Part shown: positions 21,769 through 25,263 of the stretch, in pieces
How the letters are laid out: each line of letters opens with the position of its first letter
How positions within the stretch are numbered: the first letter of the stretch is position 1
DNA from: Chloroflexia bacterium SDU3-3
GTDB lineage: Bacteria > Chloroflexota > Chloroflexia > Chloroflexales > Roseiflexaceae
Assembly (NCBI GenBank): GCA_009268125.1
Contig: WBOU01000019.1
Location: forward strand, 1 to 64,000
Reading direction: 5' to 3'
DNA: 64,000 bases
The notes under the pieces: generated by a model
Told to the model about the DNA's origin: nothing
Databases searched by the model: none
Seen by the model: the letters and a program-made list of their open reading frames with translations, nothing else
Program-made: the position numbers and the translations under genes

Positions 21769-21803
21769 GCCCCTTCCCCACGCGCTGGGGGAGGGGCTTT
21801 TTT
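21769..21803 (+). terminator. Intrinsic terminator after the SDR gene
   Basis: A 12-bp arm GCCCCTTCCCCA (21769-21780), a 5-base loop, and TGGGGGAGGGGC (21786-21797) with one G-T pair, followed by six T residues. Confidence 0.88.
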
Positions 21804-22086: not shown

Positions 22087-22296
22087 GGCCCGCGAGCGCA
22101 AGCCAGCGGCCCGCGAGCGCAAGCCAGCGGCCCGCGAGTGCAGGTCAGCGGCCCGCGAGTGTAAGCCAGCGGCCCGCGAGTGTAAGCCAGCGGCCCGCGA
22201 GTGTAAGCCAGCGGCCCGCGAATGTAAGCCAGCGGCCCGCGAGTGCAAGCCAGCGGCCCGCGAATGTAAGCCAGCGGCCCGCGATTGCAGCACAGC
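22087..22296. repeat. 21-bp tandem array 2 (10 copies)
   Basis: Ten head-to-tail 21-bp units start at 22087 and every 21 bases to 22276. Each begins GGCCCGCGA and ends AAGCCAGC, with changes concentrated at a few positions (GAGTGT, GAGCGC, GAATGT). Junctions form GCGG-C-CCGC. It has no spacers and no supported coding frame. The sequence is unrelated to the arrays at 227 and 40957 but the unit length is the same. Confidence 0.93.
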
Positions 22297-22497
22297 GGCC
22301 TGGCCCATCCGTCGAAGGTGCACGCATATGCCAGCTGGCCATAATCCTCACCGAAGCGGGAAGGCTGCGCCCAGCGCTGGCAGGCCGCTTTTTCCTGTCT
22401 TTTCCCGCTTCGCGCCCTCGCGGCTGCGGGGTGAAGCGGCCCTTTTCTTCCCTTGGTGTCTTGGAGCCTTGGTGGTAAAGAAGCTAGGCTGCCCAGC

Positions 22498-22526
22498 TTG
22501 ACAGGCTGGGCATGAGCGATTATAGT
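22498..22526 (+). promoter_or_regulatory. Promoter of the threonine operon leader
   Basis: TTGACA (22498-22503), a 17-base spacer and TATAGT (22521-22526). Predicted transcription starts near 22533, about 18 bases before the leader-peptide ATG. Confidence 0.8.
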
Positions 22527-22550
22527 AGCAAAAAATCTGAGAGCACCTAT

Positions 22551-22646
22551 ATGCTGTTCAACGCTCGCCACAACATGACTACCACCACCACTACCACCAC
22601 CCTAATGGTCGATACCATTGGGGCAGGCGATTTTGGGAGGGTGTAA
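22551..22646 (+). CDS. Threonine-rich attenuator leader peptide
   Basis: A 31-codon reading frame, too short for usual gene finding. It starts at ATG 22551 (GAGAG at 22539-22543 is a weak SD) or at the in-frame ATG 22575, and contains eight consecutive Thr codons (ACT/ACC, 22578-22601), then L-M-V-D-T-I, ending at TAA 22644-22646. A run of codons for the product of the downstream pathway is the hallmark of amino-acid attenuators such as thrL. The region overlapping its stop codon is the antiterminator arm. It lies directly before thrC. Confidence 0.85.
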   Translation: MLFNARHNMTTTTTTTTLMVDTIGAGDFGRV

Positions 22647-22708
22647 GAGTCATCCTGGTGATCAGCAGACGCTGTACCCCCTCCTGAAAAGGATGGGGGT
22701 TTTTGTTT
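22636..22708 (+). terminator. Threonine attenuator: antiterminator arm and intrinsic terminator
   Basis: Terminator: ACCCCCTCC (22676-22684) pairs with GGA-T-GGGGGT (22691-22700, one bulged T), loop TGAAAA, then TTTTTGTTT. Competing fold: GGAGGGTGT (22636-22644), which overlaps the end of the leader frame, can pair with the same 22676-22684 arm in eight of nine positions. A ribosome that reaches the stop codon covers 22636-22644 and lets the terminator form; a ribosome stalled at the Thr codons leaves it free to block the terminator. Confidence 0.82.
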
Positions 22709-22789
22709 GACCTTGAACGATATACGGTACCACGGCGCATGTATCAGCCGCCTGGGGGCGCACGGCCCGCCAAGGCTACGGAGGAAGCG

Positions 22790-23830
22790 ATGCTCATCGA
22801 ACACTACCGCGAGTTCCTGCCCGTCACCGACCAGACGCCCCGCCTGACCCTGCACGAGGGCGGCACCCCCCTGATCAACTCGCCCCGGCTGGCCGCCGCG
22901 CTGGGCGTGCGCGAGCTCCACATCAAGTTTGAGGGCATGAACCCCACCGGCTCGTTCAAAGATCGCGGCATGGTGATGGCGGTGGCCAAGGCGCTGGAGA
23001 GCGGCGCGAAGTCGATCATCTGCGCCTCGACCGGCAACACCTCGGCCTCGGCGGCGGCGTATGCGGCCCGCGCGGGCATCGAGGCGATCGTGGTGGTGCC
23101 TGCGGGCAAGATCGCGCTGGGCAAGCTGGCCCAGGCGCTGATGTACGGCGCGCGGCTGCTGGTGATCGAGGGCAACTTCGACCAGGCGCTGAACATTGTG
23201 CGCGACCTGGCCGACGAGTTCCCGACCACGCTGGTGAACTCAGTGAACCGCTTCCGCGTGGAGGGCCAGACGACGGGCGCATACGAGATCTGCGACGCGC
23301 TAGGCCGCGCCCCCGACGGGCTATGCCTGCCGGTGGGCAACGCGGGCAACATCACGGCCTACTGGCTGGGCTTCAAGCGCTACTTCGAGGCGGGCAAGGT
23401 GGGCAGCCGCCCCAAGATGCTGGGCTTCCAGGCCGCCGGTGCCGCGCCGATCGTGCTGGGCGCGCCGGTGGAGCACCCCGAGACGGTGGCGACGGCCATT
23501 CGGATCGGCAACCCGGCGAGCTGGCAGTACGCCGTGGCGGCCCGCGACGAGTCGGGCGGCCTGATCGACGCGGTGACGGACGAGGAGATCATGGCGGCCT
23601 GGCGCGACCTAGCGCGGCTGGAGGGCATCTTCTGCGAGCCGGCCTCGGCGGCGGGCATCGCCGGGCTGCGAAAGCTCATCCAGCAGGGCCGCGCCGAGCC
23701 GGATGCCTGCTACGCGGCGGTGGTGACGGGCCACGGCCTGAAAGACCCGAACTTGGCGGTCGAGCAGTTCGAGAAGCCTACGCCGGTGGCTGCGGAGATG
23801 GACAAGATCGTTCAGTGGCTGGGCTGGTAG
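22790..23830 (+). CDS. thrC: Threonine synthase
   Basis: 346 residues, a fold-type II PLP enzyme. The Schiff-base Lys57 lies in [10 protein letters not shown], the phosphate-binding glycine loop in LPVGNAGNI, and [12 protein letters not shown] and [10 protein letters not shown] are typical of the family. It converts O-phosphohomoserine to threonine. ATG 22790 has GGAGG at 22780-22784; the frame extends upstream to 22703 but that part lies inside the attenuator. It is the first structural gene after the leader and is followed by lysC after 32 bases. Confidence 0.95.
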
Positions 23831-23862: not shown

Positions 23863-25263
23863 ATGTCGCTGCTTGTGATGAAATTTGGCGGCACCTCGGT
23901 GGGCAGCGCGGCGGCAATCGCGCAGCTGGTGTCGATAGCGGTGGATCAGCGGAAGACCTGGGATCAGGTGGGCGTGGTGGTCTCGGCCATGAGCGGCGTG
24001 ACCGACATGCTTATCGGCGGGGCCAAGGCGGCGGCGGCGGGCGATGATGCGCCGTACCAGGCCAACGCGGCCAAGATGCGCCAGAAGCACGCCGAGGCGC
24101 TGGCCGAGCTGGCGGGCGAGAGCGAGGACACCCGCGCGGTGCTGGCCACGATCAACGGCCTGATCGACGACTTCGAGCTGCTGTGCCGCAGCGTACACGT
24201 GCTGGGCGACCTGACGCCGCGCGCCCACGATGCGATCGCCAGCCTGGGCGAGCGCATGAGCGCGCGGCTGGTGGCCTGCGCCATGCGGGCCAGGGGCCTG
24301 GACTCGGAGTCGATCGACGCGACCGAGTTTGTGGTGACGAGCGACGAGTTCAGCAGCGCGGTGCCGCTGCACGTGCAGACACGGGCCTTGGCCGCCGTGC
24401 GCGTGCGCCCCGTGCTGGAGCGCGGCGCGGTGCCGGTGATGACGGGCTACATCGGCGCGACCGAGAGCGGCGTGACCACCACGCTGGGGCGCGGCGGGTC
24501 GGACTACTCGGGCGCGATCATCGGCTCGGCGCTGGACGCCGACGAGGTGGCGATCTACACCGACGTGGACGGCGTGATGACGACCGACCCGCGCCTGGCC
24601 AAGAACGCCCGCGTGCTGCCGGTGCTGTCGTTCTTGGAGATGAGCGAGCTGGCCTACTTCGGGGCCAAGGTGCTGCACCCCCGCACGGTGCGGCCCTGCG
24701 TCGAGCGCGGCATCCCGCTGCGCATCCGCAACACCTTCAACCCCGAGCACGAGGGCACGCTGCTGGTGCAGCAGGCCGAGGACGACGGGCGGGCCGTGCG
24801 CGCGGTGGCCGCGATCAAAGACCTGAGCATGGTCACGGTCGAGGGGCGCGGCATGATCGGTGTGCCGGGCGTGGCGGCCAAGACCTTCGGCTCGGTGGCG
24901 GCGGCGGGGGCCAACGTGCTGATGATCTCGCAGGCCTCCTCCGAGCAGTCGATCTGCTTTGTGGTGCCCGCCGCCTCGGCCAGCGCCACGGTGGCGGCCC
25001 TGGAGGATGGGCTGCGCCACGAGCTAGAGCGCCGCGATATCGACCGGATCTGGGCGCGCGAGGGCATTGTGATCGTGACGGCGGTGGGCGCGGGCATGCG
25101 CGAGCGCCCCGGCGTGGCCGCCCAGGTGCTCACCTCGCTCTCGTCGCAGGGCATCAACGTGATCGCGATCGCGCAGGGCTCCTCGGAGTGCGCCATCTCG
25201 GTGGTGGTGGGCGCGCAGGATGGCGACGCGGCGGTGCGGGCCATCCACGAGCTGGCGATCTAG
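23863..25263 (+). CDS. lysC: Aspartate kinase
   Basis: 466 residues. The catalytic domain has the N-terminal KFGGTSVGS, GYIGATESGVTTTLGRGGSDYSG and YTDVDGVMTTDPR motifs. The last 150 residues carry two ACT domains (MVTVEGRGMIGVPGVAAK, VIVTAVGAGMRERPGVA), where feedback inhibitors such as lysine or threonine bind. It makes aspartyl phosphate, the first step toward Lys, Thr and Met. It directly follows thrC and is therefore expected to be under the same threonine attenuator. Confidence 0.96.
   Translation: MSLLVMKFGGTSVGSAAAIAQLVSIAVDQRKTWDQVGVVVSAMSGVTDMLIGGAKAAAAGDDAPYQANAAKMRQKHAEALAELAGESEDTRAVLATINGLIDDFELLCRSVHVLGDLTPRAHDAIASLGERMSARLVACAMRARGLDSESIDATEFVVTSDEFSSAVPLHVQTRALAAVRVRPVLERGAVPVMTGYIGATESGVTTTLGRGGSDYSGAIIGSALDADEVAIYTDVDGVMTTDPRLAKNARVLPVLSFLEMSELAYFGAKVLHPRTVRPCVERGIPLRIRNTFNPEHEGTLLVQQAEDDGRAVRAVAAIKDLSMVTVEGRGMIGVPGVAAKTFGSVAAAGANVLMISQASSEQSICFVVPAASASATVAALEDGLRHELERRDIDRIWAREGIVIVTAVGAGMRERPGVAAQVLTSLSSQGINVIAIAQGSSECAISVVVGAQDGDAAVRAIHELAI

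Follow-up and report, generated by a model that had tools for sequence, protein, structure and literature searches.

A predicted threonine-responsive transcription attenuator upstream of thrC-lysC in Roseiflexaceae, with similar leaders elsewhere in the Chloroflexota

The threonine synthase gene thrC and the aspartate kinase gene lysC lie side by side in a 64,000-nucleotide stretch of DNA from Chloroflexia bacterium SDU3-3 (contig WBOU01000019.1, positions 1–64,000), here called the window. An earlier note, made from the letters of this DNA, had placed a threonine attenuator in front of the pair. The upstream region was compared across the 16 thrC loci of Roseiflexaceae for which upstream DNA exists, window included; they represent five genera. 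Below, numbers with f and g are the family and genus labels of the genome set compared, f1 being Roseiflexaceae, which belongs to the order Chloroflexales of the class Chloroflexia (phylum Chloroflexota). The features of the window are as follows.

22498..22526, + strand: sigma-70-type promoter TTGACA-17-TATAGT; all 16 Roseiflexaceae loci retain a spacer of 17 bases
22551..22646, + strand: leader open reading frame of 31 amino acids, MLFNARHNMTTTTTTTTLMVDTIGAGDFGRV followed by a stop codon; counterparts in 15 relatives have 24–33 amino acids
22578..22601, + strand: putative sensor, eight consecutive Thr codons (leader codons 10–17), a run unique in the genome
22586..22598, + strand: arm 1, the part of the Thr-codon stretch predicted to pair with 22626–22643 in ribosome-free RNA, hiding arm 2
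22600..22623, + strand: predicted 10-bp hairpin (22600–22609/22614–22623) within the leader frame, 3′ of the Thr run
22631..22645, + strand: arm 2, the 5′ side of the predicted antiterminator, TTTTGGGAGGG.GTA, which overlaps the leader stop codon and would pair with 22675–22689
22676..22704, + strand: intrinsic terminator with arm 3 (22676–22685), arm 4 (22690–22700) and five T (22700–22704), conserved in 16 of 16 loci
22790..23830, + strand: thrC, threonine synthase (TIGR00260, 322.9 bits; cut-off 167.1)
23863..25263, + strand: lysC, aspartate kinase, the next gene after thrC (TIGR00657, 413.7 against a cut-off of 208.7)

Both enzymes had been named in the earlier note, and the model scores, each above its cut-off, agree with it. 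The two genes are adjacent in all 16 Roseiflexaceae loci. The window ThrC is 81% identical to that of Chloroflexi bacterium AL-N1 and 77% to that of Roseiflexus sp., and its other nearest relatives are likewise from Roseiflexaceae. An aspartate-semialdehyde dehydrogenase gene, asd (NF006416; 27259–28413), follows about 2 kb 3′ of lysC in the same direction. On the other side, a strong terminator-like hairpin (21769–21797; 12 pairs, then TTTTTT) stands just 3′ of a fabG-like gene and separates the upstream gene cluster from thrC-lysC, and a tandem array (22087–22300; 21-bp unit, 10.2 copies, 92% matches) lies in the interval that runs from the fatty-acid gene cluster to the thrC promoter. Elsewhere in this genome, the regions 5′ of hom and of the genes for class II synthetases contain no Thr leader.

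The promoter, which runs from TTGACA at 22498 to the end of TATAGT at 22526, matches the consensus at 11 of 12 positions and is the sole such site within 2.2 kb, where 0.4 would be expected. It is followed by a 31-codon leader rich in codons for Thr, the product of the pathway. Runs of at least seven Thr codons occur at a single place in the 6,761,922-base genome; the reversed control pattern gave 33+24 matches. No strong Shine–Dalgarno sequence is evident before the leader ATG. The G-rich antiterminator stretch GGGAGGGTGTA occupies 22635–22645 and overlaps the leader stop codon (22644–22646), and the terminator lies 85 bases 5′ of thrC-lysC. The promoter, the leader with its eight Thr codons in a row, the antiterminator arm overlapping the stop codon (given as 22636–22644) and the terminator stem (given as 22676–22705) had all been described in the earlier note, whose coordinates prove right to within a few bases.

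Folding of the leader RNA (22533–22712, 180 bases) gave a z-score of −3.75, and none of 200 shuffles was equally stable. In the ribosome-free predicted fold, 22586–22598 is paired with 22626–22643, the hairpin at 22600–22623 is present and the terminator is formed. The leader RNA is thus predicted to follow a 1:2/2:3/3:4 design, in which the Thr-codon stretch would pair with arm 2 in RNA free of ribosomes. As isolated hairpins, the antiterminator has a folding energy of −23.8 kcal/mol, compared with −17.4 kcal/mol for the terminator alone. Arms 2 and 3 are too invariant among the loci to yield a covariation signal. In genus g9, five of the eight pairs in the counterpart of the hairpin after the Thr run show compensatory changes, and the g9 structure has a covariation score greater than those of all 500 shuffles.

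The behaviour of this RNA was modelled with a ribosome footprint of −15 to +11 around the A site, a convention. When full-length RNA was folded at equilibrium with the ribosome in place, the terminator won in every state at each of the 16 loci. This calculation did not separate the states and was dropped in favour of the growing-RNA test described below. For the window RNA ending in the T run, stalling reduced the lead of the terminator from ~13 to 4–7 kcal/mol. As the antiterminator never beats the terminator at equilibrium in full-length RNA, the competition must be kinetic, with the antiterminator acting by forming first. The earlier proposal that the two structures compete accordingly stands, refined to a kinetic competition.

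In the growing-RNA test, the RNA was folded only as far as terminator arm 3, and the probability that arm 3 pairs upstream was calculated without a ribosome, with a stalled ribosome and with a ribosome at the stop codon. For the window, the probability of the antiterminator was 0.15 in free RNA, 0.87 with the ribosome on the Thr codons and 0.17 with the ribosome at the stop codon. Each locus was given a switch score, defined as the stalled probability minus the larger of the free and at-stop probabilities, and in the shuffled controls the stretch from the ribosome to arm 3 was randomised. The mean score of the 16 loci was 0.394, against 0.050 ± 0.038 for the shuffles, none of which (0 of 60) reached 0.394. 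The predicted switch is clear in 9 of the 16 loci, and there is little or none in seven (L005, L008–L011, L015 and L016). Constrained folding had been suggested beforehand as a check, and its outcome does not refute the attenuator: the growing RNA switches as predicted, and at full length a stall cuts the terminator lead to 4–7 kcal/mol. A terminator opposed by an antiterminator that ribosome position would free is hence found as a prediction, kinetic and not at equilibrium.

Taken together, we put a probability of roughly 0.92 on the window element being a ribosome-mediated transcription attenuator that would sense charged tRNA-Thr and control thrC-lysC. For leader translation, ribosome stalling, the efficiency of termination and the response to Thr, we infer the following course. 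Transcription would begin just after 22526, and the leader would be translated from 22551. With ample Thr-tRNA, the ribosome would get to the stop codon at 22644 and cover arm 2 (22635–22645), so that arm 3 would pair with arm 4 and transcription would end at 22700–22704. With scarce Thr-tRNA, the ribosome would stall within 22578–22601 and cover arm 1; arm 2, freed by the stall, would pair with arm 3 (22675–22689) before arm 4 is made, and the polymerase would read into thrC and lysC. If the leader were not translated, arms 1 and 2 would pair and the terminator would form, making the default state off.

Conservation among the Roseiflexaceae follows this arrangement closely. In all 16 loci a promoter (TTGACA-17-TATAGT, -TATTAT or -TACCAT) is followed by a leader of 24–33 codons, 7–12 of them for Thr, then by a G-rich stretch near the leader stop codon and a C-rich/G-rich terminator with a T run; in each, the short frame lies between promoter and terminator and 5′ of the biosynthetic genes. 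The leader peptides diverge except for Thr, as in MISKTTAIRTTTHTTSTTTVEECARGRVAV, MRAAFRTTTATTTTRTTTAGLDCRGRVFGR and MISHSCATTTTTILTHTTTRVSTW. Among the 10 Thr codons of genus g8, the third position varies in nine, and positions 1 and 2 vary in three and five, respectively; variation mostly at the third base is expected if the amino acid is what is selected. In all seven loci of genus g9 (L012–L018), the leader ATG lies 6–7 bases 3′ of the −10 box, which places the start of the message close to the start codon and probably makes the transcript leaderless. The parts, their conservation and the retention of Thr in frame are evident from the sequences compared, as is, at the level of prediction, the switch in the growing RNA.

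It could be argued that a short translated leader merely happens to precede an ordinary terminator and senses no amino acid, the Thr run being a low-complexity accident. Simple ACC-like repeats do arise readily, and a 21-bp tandem array lies nearby (22087–22300). However, the run is unique in the genome, Thr-rich leaders with differing codons and flanks recur in 16 of 16 loci, and other lineages also carry Thr-rich leaders before lysC, which together make an accident very improbable.

Elsewhere, genes of the aspartate pathway are controlled by lysine riboswitches or T-boxes. A leader RNA of this kind would bind a metabolite or uncharged tRNA directly and would need no translation, and the long, stable, structured 5′ leader of the window might be read in that way; one lysC of the Chloroflexota (L269) does have a SAM riboswitch in front of it. 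Rfam T-box and riboswitch models, however, gave no match in the window up to E = 10, and none in the Roseiflexaceae relatives scanned at gathering thresholds. Furthermore, the primary sequence of the leader diverges widely between Roseiflexaceae genera but its coding pattern is retained, so that direct ligand binding is judged as improbable as an accidental leader. Least probable of all is a C/A-rich repeat that acts only as RNA, as a regulatory protein binding site or structural arm with an incidental open frame: the Thr-codon stretch does pair with the G-rich arm in the predicted free fold, but all 16 loci have an open frame with a start codon that reads Thr and ends near arm 2, variation is greatest at the third base of the codons, and g9 start codons sit at approximately the transcript start. 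Ribosome-mediated attenuation in response to Thr is the reading carried forward here.

The element has a restricted distribution around thrC. Herpetosiphonaceae and a fourth family of Chloroflexales possess the same thrC type and lack the Thr leader, and the element is hence a trait of the family, not of thrC everywhere. The expectation that related thrC genes would carry a Thr leader with competing arms is borne out at every Roseiflexaceae locus with upstream DNA, and this check does not refute the attenuator. Chloroflexaceae have a distant thrC type whose upstream regions contain no Thr leader, and relatives of threonine synthase outside Roseiflexaceae have none upstream, the few matches looking like chance frames. 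In the thrC-lysC loci of Herpetosiphonaceae (L119, L121–L127), where the Thr leader frame is missing, a conserved terminator-like hairpin occurs a few bases 3′ of the −10 box of the thrC promoter; some other early-termination control of these genes is possible. A pattern search for Thr runs over the whole order was discarded as too unspecific.

The 16 loci served to build a covariance model (R1), whose strong matches among 400 Chloroflexota genomes were confined to Roseiflexaceae. The weak matches were mostly bare terminators, but two led to leaders of lysC. Outside the class Chloroflexia, a Thr-rich leader followed by an intrinsic terminator lies directly 5′ of aspartate kinase genes in five families (f13, f74, f76, f83 and f120). 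Loci of this type are L203, L216 and L225–L254 of f13, together with L268, L294, L297, L307, L310, L311, L323 and L324. L313 was rejected as a leader, the terminator being absent 3′ of it. Many further families of the phylum were sampled and gave no Thr-rich leader before lysC, and phage records gave no match. In family f58, the aspartate kinase gene of L269 is preceded by a SAM riboswitch (1290–1430; RF00162, 72.2 bits), another control of the same pathway.

Of 30 loci of family f13, 25 showed the Thr-rich leader and terminator before lysC in an automatic scan; at three of the remaining five, the upstream DNA is short or differs. The f13 leaders (L225–L254) contain conserved Met codons beside the Thr codons, for example in GTMTMTTTSG, and might respond to both amino acids, each of which the aspartate pathway produces. 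They also have an arm with complementarity to the terminator. The folding test gave a strong antiterminator, with a probability of 0.79 in the stalled state against 0.43 for shuffles, and a mean difference of 0.064 (shuffles −0.041 ± 0.036), which is no clean switch; attenuation is the presumed mechanism in this family. Roseiflexaceae genus g3 (G002, L263) has no near relative of the window thrC type and carries a Thr-rich leader and terminator before lysC, MRQPSGTTTTIATTTTPITRIGVQLRDG, as though the element had remained beside lysC.

The Thr-rich leaders before aspartate kinase genes of Chloroflexota outside Chloroflexia are apparently an unreported set of putative attenuators. More broadly, we lean towards the view that leader-peptide attenuation responsive to Thr, and in some lineages perhaps to Thr and Met, is a usual means of controlling the aspartate pathway across much of the phylum. 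In Roseiflexaceae it would act before thrC-lysC and in other lineages before lysC, often through leaderless leader genes, and it would have arisen or been kept independently of the proteobacterial thr attenuators. Together with the similar leaders of other Chloroflexota, the conserved Roseiflexaceae element indicates that this strategy either is more ancient than an origin in gamma-proteobacteria or evolved repeatedly, and that sequence-based Rfam models miss it. Such an attenuator would imply tight coupling of transcription and translation in these bacteria, and offers a self-contained reporter for that coupling.

Compared with the window, the Rfam model of the proteobacterial Thr leader (RF00506, Thr_leader) gave no match up to E = 10, and the element is therefore not assigned to that family and no common descent with the proteobacterial thr attenuators is claimed. 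The only Rfam match noted for the window was to RF00514 (His_leader), which scored 16 bits, below the gathering score of 49. One comparative survey, which covered 43 Rfam motifs and had five Chloroflexi genomes in its sample, proposed a possible gamma-proteobacterial origin of Rfam-type amino-acid attenuators, followed by very few horizontal transfers (PMC3766115), and a survey of Actinobacteria did not find a conserved Thr element (PMC1262725). The full-text literature searched yielded no report of a Thr attenuator in Chloroflexota, in line with the earlier note, which knew of none in the phylum; the 2010 survey by Lopatovskaya et al. lay outside that search.

The lysC leaders of other Chloroflexota resemble the window in having a Thr-rich short frame, an intrinsic terminator and a gene of the aspartate pathway, but differ in the first gene, in the Met codons often mixed in and in their unrelated sequence. 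In Streptomyces lividans, reannotation proposed a Thr-dependent leader peptide, thrL, before thrS, a weak candidate with a leaderless transcript, only two Thr codons and no clear terminator (PMC8079986). Like the window leader it would be a Thr-dependent leader outside the proteobacteria, and its leaderless transcript resembles what is proposed here for genus g9; it precedes an aminoacyl-tRNA synthetase gene, whereas the window leader precedes the biosynthetic genes thrC-lysC.

The closest parallels are the attenuators of Escherichia coli. E. coli thrL (RF00506) shares with the window element a Thr-rich leader peptide, an arm 2 at the leader stop codon, an antiterminator of arms 2 and 3 that opposes an intrinsic terminator, and Thr-pathway genes downstream. 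It differs in phylum, in its target genes (thrABC rather than thrC-lysC) and in its leader, where Thr and Ile alternate; in the window leader the Thr run is pure, and one Ile codon lies outside it. As a positive control, the full-length thrL RNA also favoured the terminator, by 12–24 kcal/mol, and the growing RNA gave antiterminator probabilities of 0.41 free, 0.74–0.75 with the ribosome stalled (for the majority of the Thr and Ile codons) and 0.08 at the stop codon. Under the same folding method, thrL therefore presents the same predicted picture as the window attenuator. The E. coli trp attenuator has the 1:2/2:3/3:4 design, and there too the codon-bearing stretch pairs with arm 2 in the absence of a ribosome, so that termination is the default; the window element would sense another amino acid and has an extra hairpin after the codon run, inside the leader frame. 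In anatomy and predicted behaviour, the window element would work as the E. coli thr and trp attenuators do. It is a well-supported case of a textbook type, notable for the phylum in which it occurs and for its spread, not for a new principle.
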